A stretch of DNA of 64,000 nt from Chloroflexota bacterium (lineage in GTDB: Bacteria; Chloroflexota; Dehalococcoidia; Lucifugimonadales; Lucifugimonadaceae): positions 100,022 to 164,021 of the forward strand of contig VXSB01000060.1 in assembly GCA_009838175.1 (NCBI GenBank), in the 5' to 3' direction. Position numbers and translations under genes: made by a program. The notes beneath the pieces were generated by a model. The model saw only the letters and a list, made by a program, of their open reading frames with translations, made no database searches and was not told the DNA's origin. This document shows positions 3,028 through 63,930 of the stretch, one piece after another; within the stretch, counting starts at the first letter, position 1, and every line of letters begins with the position of its first letter.

Positions 3028-3051
3028 GGGGAGATTCTAATCTTTTAGGGT

Positions 3052-3076
3052 GGGCAGGTTTGAAACCTGCCCCTAC
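3052..3076. repeat. Palindromic repeat family B copy 1 (GGGCAGGTTTGAAACCTGCCC + CCTAC)
   Basis: Perfect inverted repeat followed by CCTAC; same architecture as 3339-3363 and 4513-4537. Confidence 0.75.
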
Positions 3077-3151
3077 AGTTGGGCGGGACTGGATGGACGT
3101 TCCGTCCGCTGAAGCGCCCGCCTTCGCGGGAATGATGGGAGCCTCCGTCAC

Positions 3152-3205
3152 GGGCATCCCCTGCGTTCGCTTCGCTCCGCGTCCCCTTACGCTTCGCGAA
3201 GGGGA
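3152..3205. repeat. Palindromic repeat family A copy 1 (gggcatcccc-[stem 1]-ccccttacgcttcgcgaagggg)
   Basis: Shared core CCCCTTACGCTTCGCGAAGGGG and leader GGGCATCCCC. Confidence 0.8.
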
Positions 3206-3234
3206 GGGAAATGGCGTGCTTTGCTTTTCTCTGG

Positions 3235-3253
3235 ATTCCGGCTTTCGCCGGAA
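3235..3253. repeat. Short palindrome ATTCCGGCtttcGCCGGAAT
   Basis: Direct inverted repeat; related palindrome near 3116-3134 (cccgccttcgcggg-aatga). Confidence 0.6.
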
Positions 3254-3277
3254 TGACGGTGTAGAGCCGTCTAAGGT

Positions 3278-3336
3278 GGGCATCCCCTGCGAGCGTCGCT
3301 GCGCTTGCTCGCGTCCCCTTACGCTTCGCGAAGGGG
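3278..3336. repeat. Palindromic repeat family A copy 2
   Basis: gggcatcccctGCGAGCgtcgctgcgcttGCTCGCgtccccttacgcttcgcgaagggg. Confidence 0.8.
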
Positions 3337-3338
3337 AC

Positions 3339-3363
3339 GGGCGACCACGAGGGTCGCCCCTAC
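3339..3363. repeat. Palindromic repeat family B copy 2 (GGGCGACCacgaGGGTCGCCCCTAC)
   Basis: Inverted repeat with terminal CCCCTAC, abutting family A copy 2. Confidence 0.7.
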
Positions 3364-3518
3364 GGCTGTATGAAACTCCTGTGTCTCGCTTCGCTAACCC
3401 CCTCTTAATCTCCCCCTGAGAGGGGGAGGGGAAGGGATTTTGCTGACGCAAATAGGGGAGGTTTTCGACTTGCGACGTCCTCCCCCTAGCCCTCTCCTGA
3501 AGGAGGGGGAATGTAGGG

Positions 3519-4361
3519 GTGTTTTATGATACTAATGTTGTGGTTAATCTGAATCAGCCGAGCGGGTTTGTGGCGTACATCGACGAGTCTGGCGATGAGG
3601 GTTTTGTTTTCAATCCGGATGGTTCGGGGAGTTCGCGCTGGTTTGTTTTGTCGGCGGTGGTTACGCGTCGGGTCAACGACTTGCAGATGGTCGAGTGTCT
3701 GAGGGATGCGCGCGATGTCTTGGGCAAGTCTCCGAAGACGCCGTTGCACTTCGCTGATTTGAAGCACGAGCAGCGAGTTCCGTACATCAGACGGGTGGGG
3801 AATTTGGATGTCCGCACAATCAACGTTGCCGTTTACAAGCCGTCGATCCGGGAAGTAGGAAAGTTCAAGGGTGAGAGGCACCTTCTCTACCGGTACCTAA
3901 CGCGGTTCTTGGTGGAGAGATTGTGTTTGTTGGTTAATCGTTCGAGGCAGGCACGTCTCGGTAGGAACAAGTCAACCGAGATAATTTTCTCGGACAGATC
4001 GAACATGTCCTACGAAGAGGTGCGGTCCTATCTACGTCGATTGATCGACATAACCGCTAACAATTCGGATGATGTCCGGGTTGATGGTTCAGTGATCGAC
4101 CCTACAAAAGTAAGGTCGGTGCAGCATTCCCAATTAGCGGGATTGCAGGTTGCGGATGCGGTGGCGACGGGAGTGCATTTTGCTCTGAGGTTGAATCGAT
4201 ACGGGGAGACCGAGGATGCTTACTTTTCGCATATCACGAAGACGCTCTACCGGCACAACGGCAAGGTTTTGGGGTACGGGATGAAGTTTTGGCCGGATAA
4301 TTACGATGCTCTGAAAAGCAAAATCCCCCAAATCGTGGATTTGGAGGATTTTTTACATTAA
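3519..4361 (+). CDS. DUF3800 domain protein
   Basis: 280 aa; VAYIDESGDEGF ... RWFVLSAVVTRR ... LHFADLKHEQRVPYI typical of DUF3800. Exact start uncertain. Confidence 0.75.
   Translation: MFYDTNVVVNLNQPSGFVAYIDESGDEGFVFNPDGSGSSRWFVLSAVVTRRVNDLQMVECLRDARDVLGKSPKTPLHFADLKHEQRVPYIRRVGNLDVRTINVAVYKPSIREVGKFKGERHLLYRYLTRFLVERLCLLVNRSRQARLGRNKSTEIIFSDRSNMSYEEVRSYLRRLIDITANNSDDVRVDGSVIDPTKVRSVQHSQLAGLQVADAVATGVHFALRLNRYGETEDAYFSHITKTLYRHNGKVLGYGMKFWPDNYDALKSKIPQIVDLEDFLH
4320..4354. terminator. Bidirectional intrinsic terminator overlapping the last codons of the DUF3800 gene
   Basis: AAAATCCCCCAAATC-GTG-GATTTGGAGGATTTTTT: 15-bp stem, 3-nt loop, T-run on + strand; weaker T-tract (GCTTTTC) on - strand. 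Confidence 0.8.
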
Positions 4362-4446
4362 GGCCCCAGGTTCCGAGGATCCCACCCGATGCTGCTCGGG
4401 CTGCCGCTCTTCACGAGCGACCTCTACATCTCCTGCGCTTGCCTTG
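4320..4446 (-). ncRNA. Candidate small structured RNA of unknown family
   Basis: Near-consensus promoter at 4453-4482 (-), GC-rich foldable body (AAGGC/GCCUU, CAGG/CCUG, GAGG/CCUC rod plus CGCUC/GAGCG and CCCGA/UCGGG hairpins), terminator hairpin 4352-4320. No matching ORF. Confidence 0.5.
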
Positions 4447-4452
4447 GTTAAT

Positions 4453-4553: not shown

Positions 4554-6005
4554 CTAAACGCCGAGATGGGCTCGAAAATCGTTCAGGATTGCGTCGCGTA
4601 GTTCAACGCTTGATGTCTCGGCGTAGATGCGGAGGAGGGGTTCGGTGCCGGAGAGTCGGACTACTGCCCAGGCGTTGTTTTGGAGGTCGAGACGAACGCC
4701 GTCGCGGCGGTCTTCGGCGACAACTTCGATGCCGCCTAAAGTTGTTGGGGCTTTGCCGTTGACGGCGGTTGTGATGCGTTCGCGTTGGTCGGGTGTGAAT
4801 TCGATGTCGATGCGGCGGAAGGTGTGTGGGCCGGTGATTTCGTGGATTTCGGCTAGGAGTTCGGTGGGGGATTTACCGGACATGGCCATGCTCTCGAGGA
4901 AGAAGAGCGCGCTTAAGGGGCCGTCGCGTTCGGGGACGTGTCCGGCGAAGGCGTAGCCGCCACTCTCTTCGCCGCCGAGGACGCAGGCGTTATCAATCAT
5001 CGCGGGTCCGACGAACTTGAAGCCTACTGGTGTCCGTTGTAGTTCTACGTCGTGATGCTCGGTCAGGCGGTCCATCATGCTGCTCATCGTGATGGTGCAT
5101 GCGGCACCGCCGGACAGCTTTCGACGCGATTTCAAGTGATGGAACAGCATCGAAAAGACTTCGAGGGTGGTGACGTATACGCCGTTCTCTGCGACGACGC
5201 CTAATCGGTCAGCGTCGCCGTCGGTGGCGATGCCGACGTCGAAAGCGCCACTCTTGATCGCGGAGATCAGAGGAGCCAAATTGTCTTCAACTGGCTCTGG
5301 TTGCTTCATGCCGGGAAAGGCGGGATTGATCTCGCTCCGAATCTCAGTGACTTCGGTAGCGCCGCCTTCGAGAAGTGCGGCGACTATTCCGGCTCCGGAG
5401 CCGTGCATGGAGTCGACGGCGACGCGGATGCCCGCGGATTTGATGCGGTCGATGTCGACTAGATGCCCAAGTTGGTCTAGGTAGGGGGAGACCATGTTGG
5501 TGGTTTGGATGGGGGCCTCCGCCCGTCCTCCCCGGGCATCCCCCGCGAAAGTCGCTTCGCTCTTTCGCGCCCCCTTACGCTTCGCGAAGGGGGCGAGGAG
5601 GGATTCGATGCGTTCTACTTGATCTGGTGGGGCGCTGCCGCCGGCTTCGGATTTGACTTTGAAGCCGTTGTATTCGGGTGGGTTGTGGCTGGCGGTGATC
5701 ATGATGCCGGCGGCGGCGTTCATGGTTGTTACGGCGTAGCTGAGGGCGGGCGTTGGTAGTGGGCGGTCGGAGATTTGGACAGGGATGCCGTGGTTGGCGA
5801 TGACTTCGGCAGCGGCGCGGGCGAAGTTTTCAGATTGGAAGCGGGTATCGTAGCCAACCGCGACGCCGCGGTGTCCTTGATTGATAGCGGTTAAGTCTCT
5901 GGCAACCGCAGCAGCACAAGCGCGTACATTGGCAAAGGTGTAGTCATCGCCGATGATGGCGCGCCAACCGTCGGTTCCGAAACGAATGTCAGGTTGAGGG
6001 GGCAT
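4554..6005 (-). CDS. Phosphoglucomutase/phosphomannomutase family protein
   Basis: RFGTDGWRAIIGDDYTFANV, ITASHNPPEYNGFKVK, ATDGDADRLGVV, GGEESGGYAF, RLSGTEPLLRIYAE. Confidence 0.93.
   Translation of the reverse strand: MPPQPDIRFGTDGWRAIIGDDYTFANVRACAAAVARDLTAINQGHRGVAVGYDTRFQSENFARAAAEVIANHGIPVQISDRPLPTPALSYAVTTMNAAAGIMITASHNPPEYNGFKVKSEAGGSAPPDQVERIESLLAPFAKRKGARKSEATFAGDARGGRAEAPIQTTNMVSPYLDQLGHLVDIDRIKSAGIRVAVDSMHGSGAGIVAALLEGGATEVTEIRSEINPAFPGMKQPEPVEDNLAPLISAIKSGAFDVGIATDGDADRLGVVAENGVYVTTLEVFSMLFHHLKSRRKLSGGAACTITMSSMMDRLTEHHDVELQRTPVGFKFVGPAMIDNACVLGGEESGGYAFAGHVPERDGPLSALFFLESMAMSGKSPTELLAEIHEITGPHTFRRIDIEFTPDQRERITTAVNGKAPTTLGGIEVVAEDRRDGVRLDLQNNAWAVVRLSGTEPLLRIYAETSSVELRDAILNDFRAHLGV
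5513..5594. repeat. Palindromic repeat family A copy 3, inside the phosphohexomutase CDS
   Basis: gggcatcccccGCGAAAGtcgcttcgctCTTTCGCgcccccttacgcttcgcgaaggggg; upstream flank gggggcctccg also shared with copy 1 (gggagcctccg). Confidence 0.8.
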
Positions 6006-6061: not shown

Positions 6062-6135
6062 AACCCCCTGCGAGTTCCGCTACGCTTCACTCGCGTCCCC
6101 CTTTTGCTCCGCTTCGCTACGCAAAAAGGGGAGGT
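6062..6135. repeat. Palindromic repeat family A-like copy 4
   Basis: ccccctGCGAGTtccgctacgcttcACTCGCgtcccccttttgctccgcttcgctacgcaaaaagggg, directly 3' of metK. Confidence 0.65.
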
Positions 6136-7334
6136 TAAATTCCCGCGGCGGAGCGTAGAGCATCAGCTTTGTCGGTTTGTTCCCAGGGGAGGTCTAGGTC
6201 TTGGCGGCCGAAGTGGCCGAATGCGGCTACGGGTCGGTAGATGGGGCGTCGGAGGTTTAGGGATTGGATGATGCCGCTAGGGCGGAGGTCGAAGGTTTCG
6301 CCGACGAGCGTTGCAATGGCAGTATTCGGCAGTTTGCCAGTGCCTCGGGTCTCCACCATCAAAGACACGGGTTCTGCCTTGCCGATGGCGTAGGCGATCT
6401 GAACTTCGGCGCGTTTTGCCAGCCCAGACGCGACGATGTTCTTGGCGACGTATCGAGCCGCGTATGCGCCGGAGCGGTCAACTTTGGAGGGGTCTTTACC
6501 TGAAAACGCGCCGCCGCCGTGCCGAGCGCTGCCGCCGTAGGTGTCGACGATTATCTTGCGTCCGGTGAGCCCCGCGTCGCCATGCGGGCCACCCGTAACA
6601 AACCTGCCGGATGGGTTGATGAGGTACTTCGTTTCGCCATCGCGCATGTCGCTCGGAACTAGCGGGTCGATTACCTGCTCAATGAGGTCCCGCTCGATCT
6701 GTGATTGCTCAACGTCCGGCGCGTGCCAGGTGGATAAGACGATCGTGTCGATGCGCTGTGGTTCGTGATCTTCGTTGTACTCGACCGTTACTTGGCTCTT
6801 GGCGTCGGGACGCAGGTAGGGGATTCCGCCGTCGCGTCGGGCATCGCTCATGCTTTTTGTCAGACGGTGGGCCAACGAAATCGGGAGCGGCATTAATTCC
6901 GGCGTTTCGTCCACCGCGTAGCCGATCATCATGCCTTGATCGCCCGCGCCCTGCTGTGCATCGTCGGATTCCGAACTGCCGCGGTCTTCCAATGCCGTAC
7001 TTACCGCCGCGTCAATGTCGGGCGATTGGGAGTGAAGATAGACACCTATCTCACAAGTCTCGTGGTCGAATTGATACTCGGGATCGTCGTAGCCGATGCC
7101 ACGAATTGTTTCCCTCGCAACGGCTTCGAAATCTATTTTCGAGCTGGTAGTGATCTCACCGAACATCCACAACCGGTTAGTGGTGCAGGAGGTTTCGCAT
7201 GCTACTCGAGAGTTTGGGTCGCCCGCAAGCGCGGCATCGAGAACGGCATCGGACACCTGATCGCAGATCTTGTCAGGATGCCCGTCGGAAACCGACTCTG
7301 ATGTGAGCAGAAAGTTCGAACTGGATTGTGTCAT
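6135..7334 (-). CDS. metK: S-adenosylmethionine synthetase
   Basis: [82 protein letters not shown]. Confidence 0.97.
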
Positions 7335-11233: not shown

Positions 11234-13315
11234 ATGAAACGAATTAGTTTGGCAGTTGTGATCTCCGCCGTGTTGGCGTTTGCCATTGCGTGCGGCGGGA
11301 CGGAGACCGTCGTGGAGACCGTCGTCGTCGAACGCGTGATCACTCAGGCACCTGAACGCATCGTTGAGACCGTCGAGGTTGAAAAGGTTGTGGAGCGCGA
11401 GGTCGTCCAGACTGTCGAGGTCGAGCGTGAGGTCGTCGTCGAGGTGGAGAAGGAAGTCGTTCAGACCGTCGAAGTCGAGGTGGAAAAGGTCGTCGAGGTC
11501 GAGAAACAGGTCGTGGAAGTCGTCGAAGTCGAAAAGGTAGTCGAAGTCGAAAAGGTAGTTGAGGTGGAGAAAGTGGTTGAGGTAGAGGTGACGGCCATGG
11601 TTGAGGACGATGCGATGATGATGGACGACGGCGTGATCCCGCGAGAACGCCAGTTCATCATGCTCTGGGGTGGTTCTGGTGGTGTCGGATCTGCAGGTCA
11701 GTACACCAACCACGACATCTGGAACGTCTATTCGGGCGTGAGTCACCAAGATGGCCCGCAGCTGATTTTCGAACCCCTCGCGTTCTACTCGGCCTTCAAC
11801 GACACTGAGTATCCTTGGCTCGCCGAGTCGTGGTCGTACAGCGACGACTTCACCGAGTTGACGATCAACACTCGCCAAGGTGTCAACTGGAGCGACGGCG
11901 AACCGTTCGGCGCGCATGACGTCGCATACACGCTCGAACACCTTCGCACCACGCCGGGTCTACCGCACTCGGGTCAGATCCAAGCGGATGTCGAATCGGT
12001 TGAACAGATCGACGATCACACGGTATTGGTGAAGTTCAAGGGTCCGCGACCGAAGTTCCTTTACTTCATGACCTACAAGTTCGACATCGGTGTGTACATC
12101 GTTCCCAAGCACATATACGAGCAGCACGACTGGTTCGAATTCACGAACTACGATCAGGCCAAGGGCTGGCCTGTGACGACCGGACCGTGGGAAGTAGTGC
12201 AGACCTCTACGCAGTCGAAGATTCTTAACCGTCGGGACTCCTGGTGGGCCGTCGAACAAGGCTTAGTGGACAAGATGCCGGAAGTGTTGCAGATCGTCTA
12301 CATCCCGAACCCGGGTGAAACCCAGATGGCTCAGGAGATGATCGCTAACCGTGCCGACGCTTCTTTGTCGCTGCAGACAGGCACGATGCGTGAAGTATTG
12401 TCTCGCAACAGCGCCATCATTACGCACTCAGGGTTCAACCCGCCGTACGGTTATGTTGACTGGTGGCCGATCGGTCTGCTCTTCAACGCCAGCAAGCCGC
12501 CGTATGACGATAAACGTGTGCGCTGGGCGGTTTCTAACTACCTCAACCGCGAGCAGTTGATCGAGATCGGTTTCGGTGGTGCAGGCACATTATCGTATCT
12601 GCCGATACCTACATACGCGCCGTTGCAGCGGTACTTCGATGTGGTCGAGGACAAGCTGACGACGACACACGACACGACCAAGTACGATCCGGCGCGAGGC
12701 GATGAGTTGATGATGGAGGCTGGTTACTCGAAGAACGCCGACGGATACTGGGAGAGGGACGGCAATGTCGTCGTCTGCGACATCCTCAGTTTCGGCATCT
12801 TCAACCACTACGGCCCGATCGTGGCGCGGCAGTTGGATAACCACGGCATCAAGTCGTCGTACAGCACACCGCCAGATGCATGGTCAAGGCAGTCGGCTGG
12901 TGAGGCTTCGTGTGGTTTACGAGGGCACGGCGGTTCTGTGCGTGACCCGTACTTCACACTCAGGCTCTACACCGGCGGTGACCCCAAGACCTATGACCCT
13001 GACGCAGCGCCAGGACCGGACAACCAACCGCCGAACGCGTATCACTGGTACAACGAAGAGTTCAACCGAATAACTAACGAGGTCTTCGCCACCGCCATCG
13101 ACGACATCGCGAGGCTCGAAGAGCTTTGGGATGAGGCGATGGAGATCTGGTTGGAAGAGTTGCCTGACGTTCAGGTTCTCGAGTTCTACCACCGGATTCC
13201 GATGAACACGACTTACTGGACTAACTGGCCTACTCACGACAATCCGTACGTCAACGGAGCGTTCTGGCACCTGACATTCCAGTTGGTGCTCAACGAACTT
13301 GAGCCGGTGCAGTAG
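11234..13315 (+). CDS. Peptide-type ABC transporter substrate-binding lipoprotein (SBP_bac_5) with VEVEK-repeat stalk, SBP1
   Basis: MKRISLAVVISAVLAFAIACGG lipobox; VEVEKVVEVEKVVEVEKV stalk; WLAESWSYSDDFTELTINTRQGVNWSDGEPFGAHDVAYTLEHL. Confidence 0.92.
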   Translation: MKRISLAVVISAVLAFAIACGGTETVVETVVVERVITQAPERIVETVEVEKVVEREVVQTVEVEREVVVEVEKEVVQTVEVEVEKVVEVEKQVVEVVEVEKVVEVEKVVEVEKVVEVEVTAMVEDDAMMMDDGVIPRERQFIMLWGGSGGVGSAGQYTNHDIWNVYSGVSHQDGPQLIFEPLAFYSAFNDTEYPWLAESWSYSDDFTELTINTRQGVNWSDGEPFGAHDVAYTLEHLRTTPGLPHSGQIQADVESVEQIDDHTVLVKFKGPRPKFLYFMTYKFDIGVYIVPKHIYEQHDWFEFTNYDQAKGWPVTTGPWEVVQTSTQSKILNRRDSWWAVEQGLVDKMPEVLQIVYIPNPGETQMAQEMIANRADASLSLQTGTMREVLSRNSAIITHSGFNPPYGYVDWWPIGLLFNASKPPYDDKRVRWAVSNYLNREQLIEIGFGGAGTLSYLPIPTYAPLQRYFDVVEDKLTTTHDTTKYDPARGDELMMEAGYSKNADGYWERDGNVVVCDILSFGIFNHYGPIVARQLDNHGIKSSYSTPPDAWSRQSAGEASCGLRGHGGSVRDPYFTLRLYTGGDPKTYDPDAAPGPDNQPPNAYHWYNEEFNRITNEVFATAIDDIARLEELWDEAMEIWLEELPDVQVLEFYHRIPMNTTYWTNWPTHDNPYVNGAFWHLTFQLVLNELEPVQ

Positions 13316-15713: not shown

Positions 15714-17789
15714 TTACGAGGTTGACCTGAGGTTGTTCAGGATCAACTGGAACGTAAGGTGCCAGAACGCGCCGTTGGTGTACGGGTTGTCGTGGGTCGG
15801 CCAGTTCGTCCAATAAGTCGTGTTCATCGGGATGCGGTGGTACCACTCGAGAACCTGCACGTCGGGCAGTTCGTCGAGCCAGATTTCCATCGCTTCGGAC
15901 CAAAGCTCTTCCAACTTGGCAACGTCGTTGATGCCCGTGGCAGACACTTCGTCAGTCAATTCGTTGAACCGCGGGTCTGACCAGAAGTACGCGTTGGTCT
16001 GGTGACCTTCACCAGCTTCTTCAGCATCCGTGCCGTAGTACAGGTTCATGGTGAAGTACGGGTCACGAACCGAACCACCGTGGCCTCGGAGTCCGCAAGA
16101 CGCTTCACCAGCGCTCTGCTGAGCCCAAGCATCAGGCGGGTTGTTGTACGAGGACTTGATACCGTGGTTGTCCAACTGTCGGGCCAAGATCGGACCGAAG
16201 TCGTTGAAGATACCGAAACCAAGGATGTCACAGATAACTTCGTTGCCATCCTTCTCCCAGTATCCGTTGCTGTTCTTAGCGTAACCGGCATCCATCATCA
16301 ACCCATCTGCCTTCGCCGGGTTGTACTCGATGGTGTTGTGCGTTGTAGCAAGTTTGTCTTCGACTGCGTCGTAGTAGCGTTGGAGCGGTGCGTACGACGG
16401 GATAGGCAGTTGCGATGGGGTTCCCGCGCCGTCGTATGCAACCTCGATCAGCTGATCTCTGTTGATGTAGTACGACATCGCCCAGCGAACGCGCTTGTCG
16501 TCGTAAGGCGGCTTGCTTGCGTTGAAGAGCAGTCCGATAGGCCACCAGTCGACGTAGCCATAGGGCTTCTCAAAACCGGAGTGGGTGACCACTGCGGGGT
16601 TTCGAGCAAGAACTTCGGCCATCGTGGTCGGGCGCAGGTCAAGAGTGGCGTCAGCGCGGTTGGCGATGACGGCTTGCGCCATCTGGGTCTCACCCGGGTT
16701 CGGTACGTAGACTATCTGCAGGACGTCAGGCAACTGCTCGACTAGACCTTGATCAACTGCCCACCAAGAGTCTCGGCGGTTAATGATCTTCTGTTCGGGC
16801 GAAGTCTGGATGACGTGCCACGGTCCAGTGGTGACCGGCCAGCCCTTATCAATGTCAAAGTGGGTGAACTCGAGCCAGTCGTTGCCATCGAAGACATGCT
16901 TCGGAACGATGTAAAGTCCGATGTCGAACTTGTACATCATGAAGTACATGAACTTCGGCCGCGGTCCTTGGAACGTCACCTTGACTGTCAAATCGTCGAC
17001 TTGTTCTACCGATTCAATGTCGCGCTGTACCTGCGCGCTTCGGCGTACGCCGGAGTTGTTGAGGAGGTAGTCCAATGTGTAAGCTACATCGTCCGCACCG
17101 AATGCGACGCCGTCACTCCAAGTGATGCCGTCACGCAAGTTGATGGTCAACTCCGTGAAGTCTGCGTTATATTCCCAAGACTCGGCCAACCACGGGTAGA
17201 CCGTGTCGTTGAACGCGGAGTAGAAAGCCAGAGGCTCGTAAAGAAGACCAGGGCCGTTCTGGTGGCTGGTGCCACCGTTGTAGATATTCCAGATGTCGTG
17301 GTCGGTGTACCGTCCAGCGGCACCAACTCCTCCGGAACCGCCCCAGAGCAAGATCAATTGCCGTTCGCGCGGGATCGCCTCTTCCACCATCATCATCGAG
17401 TCGTCAGCCATTGCAGTGACCTCGACCTCGACGACCTTTTCTACTTCGACGACCTTCTCTACTTCGACGACCTTCTCTACCTCGACGGTCTGAACGACCT
17501 GCTTTTCGACCTCGACGACCTTCTCGACCTCGACCTCAACGGTCTGGACGACTTCCTTCTGGACCTCGACGACGACTTCACGTTCGACTTCGACGGTCTG
17601 AACCACTTCTCGTTCGACGACCTTTTCGACCTCGACGGTCTCTACGACACGTTCTGGAGCCTGCGTGATTACACGCTCCACAACAACGGTTTCGACAACG
17701 GTCTCAGTGCCACCGCAAGCGATAACACCAACTGCGAGAGCCGCTGCCAATACCAGAGATGCTGTCAAAGTCGCTACATATTTGCGCAT
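15714..17789 (-). CDS. Peptide-type ABC substrate-binding lipoprotein with VEVEK stalk, SBP2 (paralog of SBP1)
   Basis: MRKYVATLTASLVLAAALAVGVIACGG lipobox, near-identical stalk and body to SBP1; SD AGGAGG upstream. Confidence 0.92.
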   Translation of the reverse strand: MRKYVATLTASLVLAAALAVGVIACGGTETVVETVVVERVITQAPERVVETVEVEKVVEREVVQTVEVEREVVVEVQKEVVQTVEVEVEKVVEVEKQVVQTVEVEKVVEVEKVVEVEKVVEVEVTAMADDSMMMVEEAIPRERQLILLWGGSGGVGAAGRYTDHDIWNIYNGGTSHQNGPGLLYEPLAFYSAFNDTVYPWLAESWEYNADFTELTINLRDGITWSDGVAFGADDVAYTLDYLLNNSGVRRSAQVQRDIESVEQVDDLTVKVTFQGPRPKFMYFMMYKFDIGLYIVPKHVFDGNDWLEFTHFDIDKGWPVTTGPWHVIQTSPEQKIINRRDSWWAVDQGLVEQLPDVLQIVYVPNPGETQMAQAVIANRADATLDLRPTTMAEVLARNPAVVTHSGFEKPYGYVDWWPIGLLFNASKPPYDDKRVRWAMSYYINRDQLIEVAYDGAGTPSQLPIPSYAPLQRYYDAVEDKLATTHNTIEYNPAKADGLMMDAGYAKNSNGYWEKDGNEVICDILGFGIFNDFGPILARQLDNHGIKSSYNNPPDAWAQQSAGEASCGLRGHGGSVRDPYFTMNLYYGTDAEEAGEGHQTNAYFWSDPRFNELTDEVSATGINDVAKLEELWSEAMEIWLDELPDVQVLEWYHRIPMNTTYWTNWPTHDNPYTNGAFWHLTFQLILNNLRSTS

Positions 17790-27366: not shown

Positions 27367-29562
27367 CTACTTGCCCATCATCGCGTTCTCATCGTCGATC
27401 CACCACTGCTCAGGATGTCCGTTTCCGGATGTCTGGTTGTGGTATGAGAACGGCAACGGGTTCGGGATGTTACGAACGTTGTTCTTGATGATCGCGACGT
27501 ATGTCGGTTTGTTCATCACAGTCGTGATCGGGTTGACGTTCAAGCAGTTGAGCGTAACGACGCGCTGAAGAATCTCCGCGGCGCGATCCGCAGTAGCGGT
27601 GGATTGCGACTCGTCGAACAGTTCCATCTGCTCCCGGAGGTACGGGTTCGTCGGTTCAATACCTCGTTCTCCACCCGACATGTGCCAGTCGCCGTAAAGC
27701 CGACCGGTGTTACCACCGCCGCCAACGGGCAACAGGTGCTGCGGTGTGATCAGCGTGGTCGATCGCGGTGAAGACTCCCAGTTGAAGAGCATCAGCTCAT
27801 TCAACGCACGTCGGTCCGCTTCCAAGCTACGCTCGAGTGACTGAACTTCGGCATGGACACCGATGTTGACTGCCCACTGGCGGGCGATCATCTCGTTGAT
27901 GCCAGGGTAGTCTTCGAACGCTGCCACAACAGCCGGCATCTGAACCGTCAAGCGCTCGCCGCTAGGCATCAGACGGAAACCGTCTCCGTCTTTCGAGCTA
28001 AGCCCTATCTCGTCCAAGATCGCGTTCGCCGCATCTGGATTGAACTGGACATCGTCCTCGCCAACATACTTACCGGGGTTGTCGGGATCAGGATAACCCT
28101 GGCACAAACCCGAGGTCTGGCCGACGCCGAGGAAGAACACCTCGTTGATCTGGTCCCGTTCGATACCCATGGAGAGCGCTCGGCGGAACTCAACGTTCTG
28201 GAGGTAGCTCTGAATCTCGGCGTTACCGTCCCAAGTCTCGTTGATGTAAAGGTTGGCGATACCCGACTGCGGCTGGCGCCAGAACTGGATCCGGTAGCCA
28301 ACTGACTCGGCGTTCTCGAGGAACAGCGGCAGCTTAGCGAGGTTGATGTGACGGCCCATGACCGTGTAGTTACCCGCCAGCGCGCTGAGGTTCAATACCT
28401 CATTGTTCTGCGCAAGCGTAAGAACCACGTGGTCGATGTATGGGAGTTGGTTACCCTCGGTGTCAACCGCGAAGTAGTACGGATTGCGCGTGAACGACCA
28501 CTCATTGGTGGTGATACTGCCAGTAAGCCGCCATGCGGTCAGCATCGGCGCATCGACGTTCTGGTTCGTGTTGTTCCGCTGCAAGAAGTACGTATTCCAG
28601 TTCTCGTGACCGGCTTCCGCGGCGATTGCATTCGCCTCTTCTACACCACCCTCCAAGAATTCCGGATGGAACTGCGACAGGTAGTGCTTCGGTGCAATCA
28701 ACCCACCTCCGCGTTCACCACTAGTCGCTTGACCGTTGACGATGACCGAGGCCATAAGAGTAACGAAGAAGCCGTACGGTTCTTCGGAAGTCACCTTGAA
28801 AGTCTGGTCGTCAACCTTCTCAAATAGCAGCAGCTTGCCGCCCGGTCGTGTCCAAGCCGGCTTGTTTGGCACCAACTCTTCGTTCTTAAGTATGTGCTCG
28901 TACCAGAACATGATGTCGTCGGTGGTGAACGGTGCGCCATCAGACCACTTGTGTCCCTTGCGCAGGGTGAACGTGAACTCGGTCGAGTCTTCGTTCACTG
29001 TCCAAGACTCGGCTACGTTCGGCTGTACGGTTGCCCCGGAGACGTCGTAGAACAGGAAATGGTCGTGGAGCGGACGCTCCATGTTTTGCCCGTCGGCCGG
29101 GCCCGTGAAACCGCGGTACCAGGTTCCGCCGTACTTGCCGATGCTCTCTGTGGGCTTCAGAACCAGCGGGTTCTCAGGCAAACGCTCTCCAACCGGAGGC
29201 AGTTCGCCAGCGGCCACGCGGGCTGCGAGCAACGGTGCCTCTTGGAATGAATCAGGTTTCGGGAACAGGTTGCCGTTCGCATCGTAGATGGTCGGCCAGA
29301 CGTTTTCTGCCGGGTCAGCCGTGATGTGAGGCGAGTCAACTCGAACCGGCTCAGGTGTCGGGATAACGACTACCTCAACTTCGACTTCTTTGACCACCTC
29401 TTTTTCGACCTCGACGATCTTCTCGACCTCAACGGTCTGGATAACCGTTGTTTCACCGCCCCCACAGGCGATAGCGGTTGTAAGAGCGGCAGCCGCAACG
29501 GTCAGCATGAAGGCGAGAAGCGATCGCTTGGCAAGCAATGCTCCATATTTCGTGCTTCGCAT
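27367..29562 (-). CDS. Peptide-type ABC substrate-binding lipoprotein, SBP3
   Basis: TTAIACGGGETTVIQTVEVEKIVEVEKEV; VAESWTVNEDSTEFTFTLRKGHKWSDGAPFTTDDIMFWYEHI. Confidence 0.92.
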   Translation of the reverse strand: MRSTKYGALLAKRSLLAFMLTVAAAALTTAIACGGGETTVIQTVEVEKIVEVEKEVVKEVEVEVVVIPTPEPVRVDSPHITADPAENVWPTIYDANGNLFPKPDSFQEAPLLAARVAAGELPPVGERLPENPLVLKPTESIGKYGGTWYRGFTGPADGQNMERPLHDHFLFYDVSGATVQPNVAESWTVNEDSTEFTFTLRKGHKWSDGAPFTTDDIMFWYEHILKNEELVPNKPAWTRPGGKLLLFEKVDDQTFKVTSEEPYGFFVTLMASVIVNGQATSGERGGGLIAPKHYLSQFHPEFLEGGVEEANAIAAEAGHENWNTYFLQRNNTNQNVDAPMLTAWRLTGSITTNEWSFTRNPYYFAVDTEGNQLPYIDHVVLTLAQNNEVLNLSALAGNYTVMGRHINLAKLPLFLENAESVGYRIQFWRQPQSGIANLYINETWDGNAEIQSYLQNVEFRRALSMGIERDQINEVFFLGVGQTSGLCQGYPDPDNPGKYVGEDDVQFNPDAANAILDEIGLSSKDGDGFRLMPSGERLTVQMPAVVAAFEDYPGINEMIARQWAVNIGVHAEVQSLERSLEADRRALNELMLFNWESSPRSTTLITPQHLLPVGGGGNTGRLYGDWHMSGGERGIEPTNPYLREQMELFDESQSTATADRAAEILQRVVTLNCLNVNPITTVMNKPTYVAIIKNNVRNIPNPLPFSYHNQTSGNGHPEQWWIDDENAMMGK

Positions 29563-33603: not shown

Positions 33604-35745
33604 TTACTTCAGGACGATGTTCTCTGGCGAGTTGTAGCTGCCGCCAATGTGCATTGGCCACTCAGCGATGTAGTTCGGATTCGCGTAGTAGGCTTGCGGT
33701 ACCGTTACGTAACCCGGGAACAACGCCCAGTTGTGCATGTACGCAAGGTACTCCTTGTTGATCTTGATGCGCTCCTCGCGGTCCGGCTCATTCCTAGCAG
33801 CGTTGTACCACTCCAAGATGTCAGGCGATTCGAAACCGCAACTGAAACCACCACGTGTCAAAGTCGTCTGCACAAGCCCCTTAGGCCAGTCGAACGGGTA
33901 CGCTTCTTGTCCGTCGTCACACGATGTCAGCATCGGAACCACGGTAGACCTGCTAACCAGCCCTGGACGGAACACACCGTACGCGTACTTGAGCACCTTT
34001 ACGTTGATACCAACGTCTGTCCAGAAACCAGCGATCGCATCTCCGATCTCGCCAGCGGGGCCTTCACCACCGCCAAGCTCCGGTCCCACGAACAACGGCA
34101 TCTCAAATCGAACACCATTGTCGCCTGCTGGATAACCCGCATCGTCGAGCATCTTGTTCGCCGCATCAACGTCGTACGGATACTCGTATTGGGAGTCCCA
34201 GTTCGGGTTGAACGTGCTGAAGTAAGTCACGTGCACCGGATTGCCAACGCCGCCGAGAACGTGCTCGACAATCGCCGCTCGATCAACCGAACGGGCCAAT
34301 GCCTGCCGGACCAATCGAGCCTGCTCCATGTCATCAATCCCCGGAGGGTTGTCTCCATCTTCAGGCTGGTGCGGGTTACCGACCCACTGGATCGGCCGCA
34401 CGAAAACGCCGTGCGACGGGAAGTCGATCGCCTCACCCGTGATCGCGTTCGTGGTCTCCCACAAGTTGCCCGGGAACATCACACCCTCTTGGATACCGGC
34501 ACCAGCGCCAACCTCCAAGAACCCGGCTTTCTTCATCCGAGCCAAGTCCTTCGGGTCGATGAACGAAACGTCAGACTCACCGTTCTGCAACAGAGCCACA
34601 CGAGTGAACTCTTCCGGAACCGCCAACACTTTGAACGAGTCAATTCCGGCGTTCTTGCGCCAGTGGTCGTAGTCAACCTTCTCTAGCGTGACACTCGTAC
34701 CAGACTTGAAGTCGGTTACGCTGAACGGACCCGTGCCGATGAAGTTGTCTTTGAGCCAGTCTCTGCCATTCTCGTCAAAAGCTCGTTTCGACGTAGCCAT
34801 GCTGGTCAATCCACCCGATGCCTCTTGGTTCAAGAAGTTGCTAGCCCAACGCACGTCGAAGTTGTTGAACTGTGCCGAGATCGTGTAGTCGTCAATCGCT
34901 TCAACTGGCACGTCGCCGAACAGCGCCGTAAAGTTCGCGGCACTAGCAGCGATCGACTCTGGGTTGATAGCCGGGTTCGTCCGGTTAATCACCCAAGCGA
35001 TATCTTCGGCCTTCAACTCACCCCAGCCATTGTGGAACTGGACCCCTTGACGGATATTGATCGTCACAGAACTCAGATCTTCCGCCAACGTCCAAGTATC
35101 TGCCAGCATCGGTTCGTCCCAGTCGGCTGCGCCAGGAGTGAACAGGTGTTCGCCCGCTCCCCAGCGATCCCCCTGAAGTGGAGCATCCGGAAGGCTTCCA
35201 CCATTGCCGCTGATGCTGCCCAACGCGGAACCAACATCCGCGAAGATGACGTGACCGGGCGTGCTCTTGGAATCGGGTATATCGATCGCCTCCATCATCG
35301 CTTCTTCCATCATCCCCTCAGGAGTCGCTGTCACCACAACCTCGACCTCCTTCTCCACCTCCTTGACAACCTCGACTTCCTCGACTACCACGACCTCAAC
35401 CGGTACTTCCTTCTCAACAACTACCGTCTGCACGACGGTCTGGCCGGCAACTTCGACTTCCCTTTCGACGACGACAGTCTGGATCACGGTCTCACCGGCG
35501 ACCTGTACTTCCTTCTCGACCACAACAGTCTGGACCACAGTCTCACCAGCGACCTGAACCTCCTTCTCGACCACGACGGTTTGGATCACCGTTTCACCAG
35601 GAACTTGCTCTTTAACCACGACGGTCTGGATTACTGTCTCGGTCCCGCCACACGCAACAGCAAATACTGCCACGACAGCCAAGATAGAGAGTAGCCCAGC
35701 GCTTAAAGTCTTGCGTTTGAACTTATCGGTCAGAATTTTCATCAC
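33604..35745 (-). CDS. Peptide-type ABC substrate-binding lipoprotein with 17-aa GETVVQTVVVEKEVQVA repeats, SBP4
   Basis: VFAVACGGTETVIQTVVVKEQVPGETVIQTVVVEKEVQVAGETVVQTVVVEKEVQVA...; DTWTLAEDLSSVTINIRQGVQFHNGWGELKAEDIAWVIN. Confidence 0.92.
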   Translation of the reverse strand: MMKILTDKFKRKTLSAGLLSILAVVAVFAVACGGTETVIQTVVVKEQVPGETVIQTVVVEKEVQVAGETVVQTVVVEKEVQVAGETVIQTVVVEREVEVAGQTVVQTVVVEKEVPVEVVVVEEVEVVKEVEKEVEVVVTATPEGMMEEAMMEAIDIPDSKSTPGHVIFADVGSALGSISGNGGSLPDAPLQGDRWGAGEHLFTPGAADWDEPMLADTWTLAEDLSSVTINIRQGVQFHNGWGELKAEDIAWVINRTNPAINPESIAASAANFTALFGDVPVEAIDDYTISAQFNNFDVRWASNFLNQEASGGLTSMATSKRAFDENGRDWLKDNFIGTGPFSVTDFKSGTSVTLEKVDYDHWRKNAGIDSFKVLAVPEEFTRVALLQNGESDVSFIDPKDLARMKKAGFLEVGAGAGIQEGVMFPGNLWETTNAITGEAIDFPSHGVFVRPIQWVGNPHQPEDGDNPPGIDDMEQARLVRQALARSVDRAAIVEHVLGGVGNPVHVTYFSTFNPNWDSQYEYPYDVDAANKMLDDAGYPAGDNGVRFEMPLFVGPELGGGEGPAGEIGDAIAGFWTDVGINVKVLKYAYGVFRPGLVSRSTVVPMLTSCDDGQEAYPFDWPKGLVQTTLTRGGFSCGFESPDILEWYNAARNEPDREERIKINKEYLAYMHNWALFPGYVTVPQAYYANPNYIAEWPMHIGGSYNSPENIVLK

Positions 35746-37938: not shown

Positions 37939-39876
37939 CTACTTGATGATTATGTCCTCAAGTGGGTAGATCATGTTGACCGGCGCAGTGTGCATCGCGG
38001 CCTTCTTGGGATCCCAACTTATGAGGTCACCGTTGTAGATCGTGTAGACGGGGAATTCGACCGTTGACGGGTCCCAGTGCCAGAACGCTTCGTGGTTGCC
38101 GAATTGGACCGCCATCTCGTTGCGCTTCTGGATGTCCTCTTCCCCGAGCATGTCGCCGTAGATCCGCTGGTAGAACGGAATACCTCCGCTCCACATGATG
38201 CCACCCGCGAACCACGCTTGGGCTTCACGACCTTTGGCGAAGTGAGCAGGCATTCCACCCTGCTCTCCGTCGTGCACCAGGTGGATGAACGAACGGTCGA
38301 CGAACGTCGGGTGCCAAGTCGTGAACGGGCCGAGGTGGAATTCGACATCGACGTTCAACGTGTCTTTCCACATCGAAGCTATCGCCTGGTGAGCCTCGCT
38401 TGGTTCGTTGCCAGCCCACCATCCGATCGTGAATCCGTCGACACCGGCCTCTGACATTAGAGCCGCCGCTCCTTCCGGATCGTATGGCACACACCATGCA
38501 TCGTCATGGAGTTGGTCGTTGGCTGAGATCGCCCAGTTGCAGCCTGGCCACGCGAGGCCGTCGTAGATGCTGTCTGCCAACGCCTGCTTGTCGATCGCTT
38601 TCGCCATCGCAAGGCGGACTTTACGCCCGTTCTCCATCTCAGGACAGATCGAACCCGGGTCTGAGGGAACTTCCTCTAGAAGCACATTCCAGTCACAATC
38701 CGAACCAGGGAGGTCGTAGAAGCTGACCCAAGGGAACGCCTCCGGGTTCTTCTTCGCTTCATCGTAGCCCGGGTTGCCGAGCGGCTCACCAGTCTTCGGG
38801 TTGGTCAGCTCCAAGAAGTTCGGGTTCATTCCAACGTGCAGGATTACTGTCTGGAGCAACCGCCTTACGCCGCCGGCCGCTTCCAGTCTAGGTGTGTTCG
38901 GCAGCGTCACGTGGGTTATCATCGCTTCGCCGCTCTCAAACATCGCGATCCTAGAAGCCTCTTCAGGTACCTCGATTATCCGGGCCGACGCGATGTGTGC
39001 GGCCTGGTTGTAGTGCTCGGGCAGAGCATCAAGGAGGATTTTGTCGTTGTCCAGCCACTCTCGGATCTCAAACGGGCCGGTGCCGACGAAGATGTCGCGC
39101 ATGCCTTCGGGACCGAACTCGTCGTAGATGGTTTTACTGGCGATGCTGTAAGCGTCTCGGAGGTTCGAGAACAGCCAACCTGGAAGCCGGCTGTCGTACT
39201 TGATGATCTCCATCTCCGCGGTGTACTTGTCAACCGCAACCGTCTCCCCGTAGCAGCAGGTCAAGTCTCCTCCGACGTCGTGCAAGGTCTCTGGGTTCAC
39301 GTTTGGGTTGACTGTGTTGGTGCTCCATGCGAAGTCTTCAGCGGTTACCTCGCCCCACCCTTTGTGGAACTGGATGCCGGGGCGCACATGCCAAGTGAAG
39401 CTCGTGTAGTCCGGAGCAAGCTCCCACCGCTCGGCGACGGCCGGGATAACCCTGCCATCCGCAGACCATTGAACTGGGGTATCCCAGACGCTGTAGTAGT
39501 ACTGTTCGTTCGAACACGTAGGCACGCAAAGCTCTGGTGTGCCGACAGGCAAACCGACGGTCTGCAAAGCCGCTACAAATTCGCCAGACTGTTCAGACGG
39601 CATCATCATCGTGTCAGATGGTGCACTCGTAGCCGTTACGACGACTTCGACTTCCTTCTCGACGACCTTCTCGACCTCAACCTCAACTTCCTTCTCGACC
39701 TCAACCACCTTCTCAACTTCGACAATCACCGTTTCTTTCACGACCCTCGTGACTTCTACGGTTTCCGTCCCCCCACACGCGATCGCGAATACCGCAATCG
39801 CAGCGCCGACAGTCATCAGCAATGCTGCGACCGACTTGCGCTTGGTTATTAATGGAACGAATTTCATTTGCGACAC
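37939..39876 (-). CDS. Peptide-type ABC substrate-binding lipoprotein, SBP5
   Basis: AVFAIACGGTETVEVTRVVKETVIVEVEKVVEVEKEVEVEVEK; AERWELAPDYTSFTWHVRPGIQFHKGWGEVTAEDFAWS. Confidence 0.92.
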   Translation of the reverse strand: MSQMKFVPLITKRKSVAALLMTVGAAIAVFAIACGGTETVEVTRVVKETVIVEVEKVVEVEKEVEVEVEKVVEKEVEVVVTATSAPSDTMMMPSEQSGEFVAALQTVGLPVGTPELCVPTCSNEQYYYSVWDTPVQWSADGRVIPAVAERWELAPDYTSFTWHVRPGIQFHKGWGEVTAEDFAWSTNTVNPNVNPETLHDVGGDLTCCYGETVAVDKYTAEMEIIKYDSRLPGWLFSNLRDAYSIASKTIYDEFGPEGMRDIFVGTGPFEIREWLDNDKILLDALPEHYNQAAHIASARIIEVPEEASRIAMFESGEAMITHVTLPNTPRLEAAGGVRRLLQTVILHVGMNPNFLELTNPKTGEPLGNPGYDEAKKNPEAFPWVSFYDLPGSDCDWNVLLEEVPSDPGSICPEMENGRKVRLAMAKAIDKQALADSIYDGLAWPGCNWAISANDQLHDDAWCVPYDPEGAAALMSEAGVDGFTIGWWAGNEPSEAHQAIASMWKDTLNVDVEFHLGPFTTWHPTFVDRSFIHLVHDGEQGGMPAHFAKGREAQAWFAGGIMWSGGIPFYQRIYGDMLGEEDIQKRNEMAVQFGNHEAFWHWDPSTVEFPVYTIYNGDLISWDPKKAAMHTAPVNMIYPLEDIIIK

Positions 39877-50385: not shown

Positions 50386-52506
50386 TTACTGGGCAGGCTT
50401 GATCAGGTCCAAGGACACGATGTGCGTGCCTGCCGCATTCGCCCTCATCTCCCATGACTCAATCGAGTTCGGGTTCCAAACCAACGGCTCAGGTATCGCT
50501 GCGATTCCCGAGTTCAACCGCCAGTGACGGTAGTACTCGAGCAACTCGGTGTTGTTCGCAATCCGTTGCGCCTTGTCCAATTCGCCGGCCGTCCTAAGGT
50601 AGTTCTCAAGTACGTATGGAATCTCCATCGCACAACTGAAACCGCCGCGAGACAGTGTCGTGAATACAACGCCCTTCGGGAAGTCCCAAGGAACCGAGTC
50701 ACGAGCGTCGGTGCCTCCACAAGCACTTAAGAACGGCTGGTTCTGCGATCGGTCCACAACTGTCGGTCGCCACACAGGATATCCGTGTCTCACCAAGCTC
50801 GTGCGGATACCTAAGCTGTCCCACATCGCACCTACTGCCGCCTGAATCTCGCCGGCAGTACCCGTGGCTCCACCAACGTGAGGGGTCACGTACATGTCGA
50901 CTTGGAAGCGAATCCCGCGCGACGCAACTGGATAGCCAGCTTCGTCAAGCATCTGAGCAGCCGCTGCGGGATCGTACTCGATGTTCCACTTGTCGTCCCA
51001 TTCCGGCGACCTGATCGAGAAGGCGTTCACGTGAACTAGCCATCCTAGACCGTCGACGATCACATCGTTGATCGTCTCTTTGTCAATCGCAATCGACATC
51101 GCGGTTCGCACCATACGGGCGCGTTCCATGCTTTCGTCATTGCCGTACTCGCCGATCCAGGGGAACTGCTCAGTTGGTTGATAACCGGCACGTTCGACCT
51201 CTACCTGTTGCGGTTCGCCGACTGTGATGTCCGGACAAGAAACTGAACTAGCGCCTTGTGAGCAGTTGTAGTCATACTGCTCCCAGTAGTTTCCTGCGAA
51301 GAAGATGCCTTCTTGGGCGGCCTTACCGCTGTCCGACATCTTGAATCCTTCTTCTAGCAATCCACGAATCGCCTTCAACGAAACGTCGGCTATATCCGCC
51401 TGACCGTTCCGTAACATCGCAATCCGAGTCGACTCTTCCGGAACCTCGTTGACGTTCAAGAACGGCATGTACGCAGGCTGGATGTGGTGTTCAGGGTTCG
51501 ACTCCAACCGAACGATGTTTTGAGGAATGAACTCCTTCAACATGTACGGACCGGTGCCAATAATGTTTTCGTTCGCCCACTCGCGACCGTTCTCATCGAA
51601 CGCCGCCTTGCTGAACGTCCCGTTCGTGCCTGCGAAAGTGTTGAAGTAAGCCTGGTTCCACACGACTGTGAACTGTTTGACCGGTATCTCAACGGTGTAG
51701 TCGTCGACCTTCACCATCGGTTCAACAATCGCCGCATAGTCTCCGGACTGGTTGTGCACACTCTCCGGAGCAATCAGGTCGTTGAAACTCCATACCAAGT
51801 CATCCGCCGTCAACTCACCCCAACCGCGGTGGAACTGAACGCCTTCCTTGACCTTCACCGTGATCTTGCTCAGGTCTTCTGCGACGTCCCAAGTCTCCGC
51901 CAAAACGGGGTCAACAATGTTTGACCCCACTGGTCCGCCGGGTTGGAAGAAGCCTTCGGCAATACTCCACGGCCCGTCCGGTGCACCAGTGCTGTTCAAG
52001 CCCGTCATCGTCAGACCGACACGGTTCTGGACGGCCATCTCCGCAGTGTCTGCCGAGCTCTGTGGCGCGGGCGCTTCCATCATCGCCATCGCGATCGGCG
52101 TCGCCGTCGCAACTACGATCTTCTCGACCTCTTTCTCAACTTCCTTCACTACTTCTTTCTCGACAACCACTTCTTTCTCAACCACAACGGTCTGCACCAC
52201 AGTTTCGCCAGCGACTTGAACTTCCTTTTCGACGACGACGGTCTGAACCACGGTTTCACCGGCGACTTGCACCTCTTTCTCCACCACGACGGTCTGGACC
52301 ACGGTCTGACCCTCAACCACGACCTCCTTCTCCACCACCACGGTTTGGATCACCGTCTCGCCGGGCACGTCGCGTTCCACGACTACGGTATGAACAACCG
52401 TCTCGGTACCGCCACAAGCGATAACCGCAACCATCGCCATCGCGGCCATCGCGCCCAAAACGGCGATCACCGCCCGGTTCCTAATAAACCTAGCTTTGGG
52501 ATTCAT
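50386..52506 (-). CDS. Peptide-type ABC substrate-binding lipoprotein with 17-aa repeats, SBP6
   Basis: MVAVIACGGTETVVHTVVVERDVPGETVIQTVVVEKEVVVEGQTVVQTVVVEKEVQVAGETVVQTVVVEKEVQVA; LAETWDVAEDLSKITVKVKEGVQFHRGWGELTADDLVWSFN. Confidence 0.92.
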   Translation of the reverse strand: MNPKARFIRNRAVIAVLGAMAAMAMVAVIACGGTETVVHTVVVERDVPGETVIQTVVVEKEVVVEGQTVVQTVVVEKEVQVAGETVVQTVVVEKEVQVAGETVVQTVVVEKEVVVEKEVVKEVEKEVEKIVVATATPIAMAMMEAPAPQSSADTAEMAVQNRVGLTMTGLNSTGAPDGPWSIAEGFFQPGGPVGSNIVDPVLAETWDVAEDLSKITVKVKEGVQFHRGWGELTADDLVWSFNDLIAPESVHNQSGDYAAIVEPMVKVDDYTVEIPVKQFTVVWNQAYFNTFAGTNGTFSKAAFDENGREWANENIIGTGPYMLKEFIPQNIVRLESNPEHHIQPAYMPFLNVNEVPEESTRIAMLRNGQADIADVSLKAIRGLLEEGFKMSDSGKAAQEGIFFAGNYWEQYDYNCSQGASSVSCPDITVGEPQQVEVERAGYQPTEQFPWIGEYGNDESMERARMVRTAMSIAIDKETINDVIVDGLGWLVHVNAFSIRSPEWDDKWNIEYDPAAAAQMLDEAGYPVASRGIRFQVDMYVTPHVGGATGTAGEIQAAVGAMWDSLGIRTSLVRHGYPVWRPTVVDRSQNQPFLSACGGTDARDSVPWDFPKGVVFTTLSRGGFSCAMEIPYVLENYLRTAGELDKAQRIANNTELLEYYRHWRLNSGIAAIPEPLVWNPNSIESWEMRANAAGTHIVSLDLIKPAQ

Positions 52507-53012: not shown

Positions 53013-54522
<1,510 letters not shown>

Positions 54523-63871: not shown

Positions 63872-63930
63872 GGGCATACCCCGCTCGCATCGCTCCGCTC
63901 GCTCGCGCCCCTTTCGCAGAGCGAAAGGGG
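63872..63930. repeat. Palindromic repeat family A-like copy 5
   Basis: gggcataccccgctcgcatcgctccgctcgctcgcgcccctttcgcagagcgaaagggg. Confidence 0.6.

Follow-up and report, generated by a model that had tools for sequence, protein, structure and literature searches.

In the 64,000-nt stretch of DNA analysed here (the window), the coding sequence of a phosphoglucomutase/phosphomannomutase (PGM) contains a copy of element A, a dispersed palindromic repeat present in many copies. Element A is very probably a non-autonomous, genus-restricted repeat of about 62 nt, of which in-frame copies in linkers are translated and tolerated, while those disrupting a frame or a domain are lost. Judged from sequence, the inserts appear to be translated; mobility would be the origin of the copies and selection the filter acting on them, and the retained inserts would be nearly neutral.

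The window belongs to a 2.64-Mb MAG in 66 contigs, labelled G000. All genomes compared are MAGs; the named congeners are Dehalococcoidia/SAR202 MAGs, the genus sample comprises seven members, and G004 consists of one single contig of 2.6 Mb. In the genus tree, the sisters G003 and G004, which are about 95% alike in core proteins, form the first branch, and G005 is the sister of G006. The window also holds a complete bacterial 16S rRNA gene (53015-54516, +), which can serve for placing the genome. Copy counts derive from searches and sampled loci, and numbers obtained with model R1 are lower bounds (150 candidates scored per genome). The letters B-F used for further repeat families are labels coined in the present analysis.

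Structure and distribution of element A

The copy in the PGM gene has the layout GGGCATCCCC-C-GCGAAAG-tcgcttcgct-CTTTCGC-G-CCCCC-TTACGCTTCGCGAA-GGGGG-CG (Table 1), and the 62-nt consensus of 41 aligned copies reads GGGCATCCCC-Y-GCGnnn-tCGCTTCGCT-nnnCGCG-Y-CCCCTTACGCTTCGCGAAGGGG-R-CG. Element A is composed of two successive hairpins and occurs in three subtypes, namely T-type, C-type and GGGCATACCCC...CCCTTTCGC...GCGAAAGGGGC. Hairpin 2 is preserved by compensatory changes between the subtypes (e.g. C-G to T-A), and its half of the element codes, on the antisense strand, for PFAKRKGA. The first-pass annotation had proposed that related copies keep the stem of hairpin 1 while changing its sequence. 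This applies to many copies, with a pairing of 0.78 versus 0.565 ± 0.025 with shuffled partners (2000 shuffles, maximum 0.648), but not to the frequent subtype GCTCGC...GCTCGC, in which stem 1 is not formed. The RNA fold of element A is strong (-50.9 kcal/mol over 88 nt, z -3.5). Most copies are open in about five of the six frames, and the antisense frames are more hydrophilic than the sense frames (mean Kyte-Doolittle values of -1.0 to -1.3 versus -0.6 to 0.0).

Table 1 Features of the window that relate to element A and its host gene
Feature	Position	Strand	Remarks
Element A core, C-type	5534..5595	+	62 nt; antisense to host gene
Hairpin 1 (GCGAAAG - loop - CTTTCGC)	5545..5568	+	Arms differ among copies, matching changes in many
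Hairpin 2 (GCCCCCTT-A-CGC-TTC-GCG-AAGGGGGC)	5569..5594	+	
Short T-type element A copy	3152-3206	+	Within repeat island without supported gene
T-type element A copy	3278-3338	+	Same repeat island as 3152-3206 copy
Degenerate element A variant	6064-6130	+	21 bits; between PGM start (6005) and MetK-like ORF 6135-7334
Third-subtype element A copy (GGGCATACCCC...CCCTTTCGC...GCGAAAGGGG)	63872-63930	+	
PGM gene	4554..6005	-	483 aa, uninterrupted ORF, PGM_PMM Pfam domains I-IV
Element-encoded codons 139-158 (PFAKRKGARKSEATFAGDAR)	5532..5591	-	PGM residues

The recurrence of the element near positions 3152, 3278, 6062 and 63872, reported previously, was confirmed, all copies lying on the plus strand, and as anticipated the repeat recurs genome-wide with further copies within coding genes. 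At least 77 copies are present in the G000 genome; BLAST found 41 at E<=2e-11, and model R1 gave at least 139 matches (150 candidates scored); such repetition is far beyond chance. The island at window 3050-3510 combines at least five palindromic families in 460 nt (GGTTTGAAACC type, element A twice, ATTCCGGC type, GGCGACC..GGTCGCC type and CTCCTGAAGGAGG type). Between this island and the PGM gene, ORF 3519-4361 (+) is accompanied at its 3' end, on the opposite strand, by a DUF3800-VII RNA (Rfam RF02967, 64.4 bits, 4353-4447, -), of which it is probably the DUF3800 partner. A repeat class unrelated to element A is formed by Glu/Val-rich low-complexity repeats (VEVEKVVEVEKEVV type) at window 11390-11551, 17400-17660, 29368-29449, 35320-35655, 39629-39762 and 52106-52431, which are common to several stretches resembling paralogous genes. 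Elsewhere in the genome, five element A copies are clustered within 7 kb (L005, G000:C44:43491-50135), where a terminase large subunit gene contains one sense-orientation in-frame copy as well as FRRNDGE and GAGLKPAP repeat peptides.

Each of the seven genus members sampled contains element A (from at least 29 to at least 139 matches each with model R1). The same model did not find it in 24 other genomes of the family or order, save for two marginal matches in one of them, and none of 196 other Dehalococcoidia genomes was matched at E<=1e-4 with stricter filters. A phage origin was considered and rejected, as the exact core hairpin was not found among 2.9 million viral contigs, though one copy sits in the terminase gene. 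Mobilisation by Y1/RAYT was likewise rejected: a search for Y1_Tnp (PF01797), which recovered matches in positive control genomes, found no such gene in 13 genomes, i.e. G000 and 12 relatives, all seven genus members included. A scan of 129 element A copies detected no target-site duplication (2-9 nt) whose offset was consistent, and the ends of the element share only an imperfect 7-bp match (CATCCCC / CGTCCCC). At Rfam gathering cut-offs, no known RNA family, ribozyme or intron matching element A was found within the window.

Copies within coding genes

The first-pass annotation placed the copy at 5534 in frame within the PGM gene. The ORF is indeed uninterrupted; the stop-free reading alone is a weak argument for an element open in most frames, and the case therefore rests on orthologs and on the number of in-frame versus frameshifted copies. 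The insert is located between domain I (residues 8-137) and domain II (174-275). In an AlphaFold2 model based on 31 sequences (mean pLDDT 90.2), which superposes on Thermus phosphomannomutase 1tuo with a TM-score of 0.84, pLDDT falls below 50 at residues 143-152 and 154-160, so that the expected surface loop is modelled as a disordered linker in an otherwise intact enzyme.

In the orthologous PGM linkers, element A occurs in G000 and G006 in the same frame, G003 contains a CGTC-type palindrome translated as VIPAQAGIQ, G002 contains another palindrome (TTTCCCCCACAAGTGGGGGAAA plus TGTCCGAAGGACA), and G004 and G005 contain no recognised repeat. The peptide is thus absent, as predicted, from G002-G005 and from distant family members; the net gain in length over repeat-free congeners is, however, about 11 residues rather than the predicted 25 or so, because the linker varies in length and sequence on its own. 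It is hypervariable and does not provide a clean empty site, and the presence of element A in G000 and G006 but not in G005 conflicts with the tree, which requires repeated insertion or loss.

Other genes offer clearer comparisons. In-frame presence in a conserved gene together with absence from the orthologs of relatives was found at HemL (a class-III aminotransferase), RACo site 1 and NAD synthase (NadE). The cleanest case is HemL, in which a 40-codon insert of G000 consists of two adjacent element A copies, one full and one degenerate; the site is empty in eight orthologs, and GGC-GTAGACAGC in G006 corresponds to the G000 insert. Element A fills RACo site 1 in G000, G005 and G006, whereas the site is empty in G003 and G004; as the latter two branch first, a single insertion accounts for this distribution. 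In NadE, element A is located between the amidase and synthase parts in G005 and G006 only, and not in G000, G003 and G004. At RACo site 2, its presence in G003 and G005 but not in their sisters G004 and G006 conflicts with the tree and again implies repeated insertion or loss. The mobility ascribed to the element by the first-pass annotation is thus supported by its presence or absence at HemL, NadE and RACo in related species rather than by any movement that was observed.

To count frames, 141 distinct element A copies with flanks were scored by codon usage, trained on the long ORFs of the window. In 15 of them, coding flanks on both sides share one open frame, and none is frameshifted. The hosts are PGM, HemL, a class I tRNA synthetase that its sequence suggests to be ValS, an S15/PepX hydrolase, RACo site 1, the VLRF1 release factor and the terminase in G000; PGM, NadE, an S15/PepX hydrolase and a RACo-type activator (site 1) in G006; and RACo elsewhere (site 1 in G005, site 2 in G003 and G005). 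Thirteen of the 15 are firm and lie in Pfam-identified genes. For the VLRF1 copy (C15:10920), the left flank scores weakly and in-frame status is likely, and the copy at C23:2009 is counted as unproven although it passed the codon-usage test, because it shows no Pfam domain and has repeat-rich flanks. With C23:2009 excluded, 13 of 14 gene-supported copies are antisense to their host gene. The spanning ORFs L003, L012, L141, L144, L145 and L147 failed the codon-usage test and were set aside as apparent wrong-frame artefacts. Several intragenic copies are orthologous or lie in one gene, which leaves about 10 independent sites; the chance that all of these would be in frame, at one third each, is about 2e-5. 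For families B-F in G004, the same test gave 10 in-frame copies and no frameshifts (189 copies in sampled loci).

Some linkers hold several unrelated families. Following its anticodon-binding domain, ValS has a linker (78 to 135 residues within the part compared) that contains B+A in G000, C+E in G003, F+C'+B+E in G004 and B in G005. At RACo site 2 there are four repeats in G003, while G004 has F plus D, G005 has A and G006 a B-like repeat. In G004, ValS is an open frame of 1059 aa in which two linkers contain repeats, the second of these linkers holding two further E copies. At L169 and L172 (RACo site 2) and L255 (ValS), the linkers consist almost wholly of in-frame repeats of up to four families. 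Family C, of the form CGTCATTCC.GC-loop-GC.GGAATCCA, has 114 copies in G004, compared with none for a reversed-pattern control. We put forward tentatively, with rather less than even confidence, that inter-domain linkers of core enzymes in this genus are shared landing sites which unrelated palindromes repeatedly colonise, stack in and leave, always in frame and without an HUH/Y1 transposase. If so, linkers would evolve to a large part through palindrome turnover, even between species as close as G003 and G004.

Origin and retention of the intragenic copies

In the explanation that we favour, element A would insert at many places through some mobilising process. Since it contains hardly any stops, has hydrophilic antisense frames and can add a net length divisible by three, a copy in the right phase in a linker or surface loop would be read as 20-40 flexible residues and tolerated, and purifying selection would remove copies that disrupt a frame or a folded domain. 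Long ORFs cover about 84% of the window, yet no more than about a tenth of the copies sampled lie in genes, which means that the majority of insertions into genes must be eliminated. The linkers marked in this way, i.e. those between PGM domains I and II, between the NadE amidase and synthase parts and after the ValS anticodon-binding domain as well as the two RACo linkers, would also gain unrelated palindromes and shed old ones.

Alternatively, the inserts could be adaptive, selection recruiting repeats to build charged flexible linkers, which we regard as unlikely. The concentration of insertions at inter-domain linkers and the prevalence of the antisense orientation, with its more hydrophilic frames, are in line with this proposal, as is the NadE insert, which is better conserved between G005 and G006 (L243/L242; nucleotide identity 0.965) than the flanking linker (0.81) or the remaining gene (0.885); this conservation could reflect gene conversion between copies or constraint. 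The PGM inserts, and the RACo inserts between G005 and G006, however, have changed faster in protein sequence than the remainder of their genes, and sister species fill the same linkers with unrelated sequence or no recognised repeat, so that no particular sequence or length is required. Adaptation may contribute but is not needed, as purifying selection alone yields an identical bias in linker and frame.

A second proposal, that the repeat is spliced from the message or bypassed by the ribosome and the protein lacks the extra residues, is very improbable. Translational bypassing is exemplified by T4 gene 60 and by the mitochondrial byp elements, and both the RNA fold of element A and its residence in conserved enzyme genes could be taken in its favour; skipped elements, however, need neither frame nor stop avoidance, and the intragenic copies keep both (15/15; 10/10 in G004), at a number of independent sites hardly reached by chance, nor did Rfam provide a ribozyme or intron match in the window. 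A peptide spanning FAKRKGARKSEATFAGDAR, if detected in the native host, would speak for translation of the insert.

It is equally improbable that repeats were misjoined into genes during assembly or binning of short-read MAGs. Repeats do seem to break contigs, the PGM contig of G001 terminating at the linker and the RACo contig of G000 stopping near a repeat copy, but identical junctions recur across assemblies made independently, in three species for RACo site 1 and in two for NadE, the single-contig G004 bears in-frame repeats in ValS and RACo, and the frame would not survive misjoins. That the phosphohexomutase has long possessed the peptide as a conserved segment with a secondary likeness to the repeat, as its occurrence in the two congeners G000 and G006 might suggest, can practically be dismissed, since it is absent from G005, the sister of G006, and from family-level homologs and the same DNA is found in HemL, NadE and non-coding islands.

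Relation to known palindromic repeats and significance

The behaviour of element A resembles that of the palindromic elements of Rickettsia (RPEs; Ogata et al. 2000, 2002; reviewed in PMC10969869 and PMC2229807), which have counterparts in Wolbachia. Common to both are small palindromes, several families per genome and a location in frame in conserved metabolic genes as well as in intergenic regions. RPEs, however, comprise about 105-150 nt with terminal inverted repeats of 12 bp (PMC2229807), whereas element A has about 62 nt and two hairpins, lacks long terminal inverted repeats and occurs in a Dehalococcoidia genus with most copies outside genes (15 of 141 examined being genic). By length and terminal repeats it does not match the RPE families of Rickettsia; the likeness to RPEs noted in the first-pass annotation is supported as a way of working, for which homology is neither shown nor needed.

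CGTC REPs are defined by a CGTC tag, a stem of 8-9 bp starting A-T, a loop of 4-5 nt and a CCA tail; they are found inside genes, have no known transposase and are listed for five phyla, Chloroflexi not among them (Di Nocera et al. 2013, PMC3733652). The companion family C, which is the one present in the PGM linker of G003, conforms to this definition: it carries the tag, the CCA tail and a stem that has the defined length and starts A-T, whereas element A is longer, lacks the AT-start stem and the CCA tail and has CGTC in the T-type only, inside the stem. GTAG REPs, which are associated with RAYTs, are also dispersed hairpin repeats that occur in part within genes (uvrA, recB, tRNA synthetases), and in two Xanthomonas species recB carries different REPs at about the same position (PMC3733652); the consensus and flank profile of element A lack a GTAG end, and no Y1_Tnp gene was found in the 13 genomes. 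MITEs such as Correia/NEMIS and ERIC are at times fused in frame to genes (PMC2229807) and are, like element A, non-autonomous and palindromic, but element A differs in its imperfect end match and in the absence of a detected target duplication. As it agrees with none of these sequence definitions, element A represents a new family working like an RPE. The claim that such behaviour is not described for this lineage agrees with our search of an open-access literature library, but intragenic REPs are known in many other bacteria (PMC3733652).

The phenomenon is therefore known in kind; new are the lineage, the repeat family and the way in which several unrelated families converge on shared linkers, and this crowding is the most interesting part. 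According to a 2024 review, in-frame fusion is unusually frequent with RPEs, and the same is conceivable in other prokaryotes (PMC10969869). Element A is such a case in another phylum and in core enzymes (ValS, NadE, HemL, PGM), and its in-frame inserts will confuse annotation and domain alignment in the group to which the genus belongs. Among the congeners, a given site may be occupied, occupied by another repeat or empty, a natural series that makes it testable how such repeats move without a RAYT and whether they alter the enzymes.
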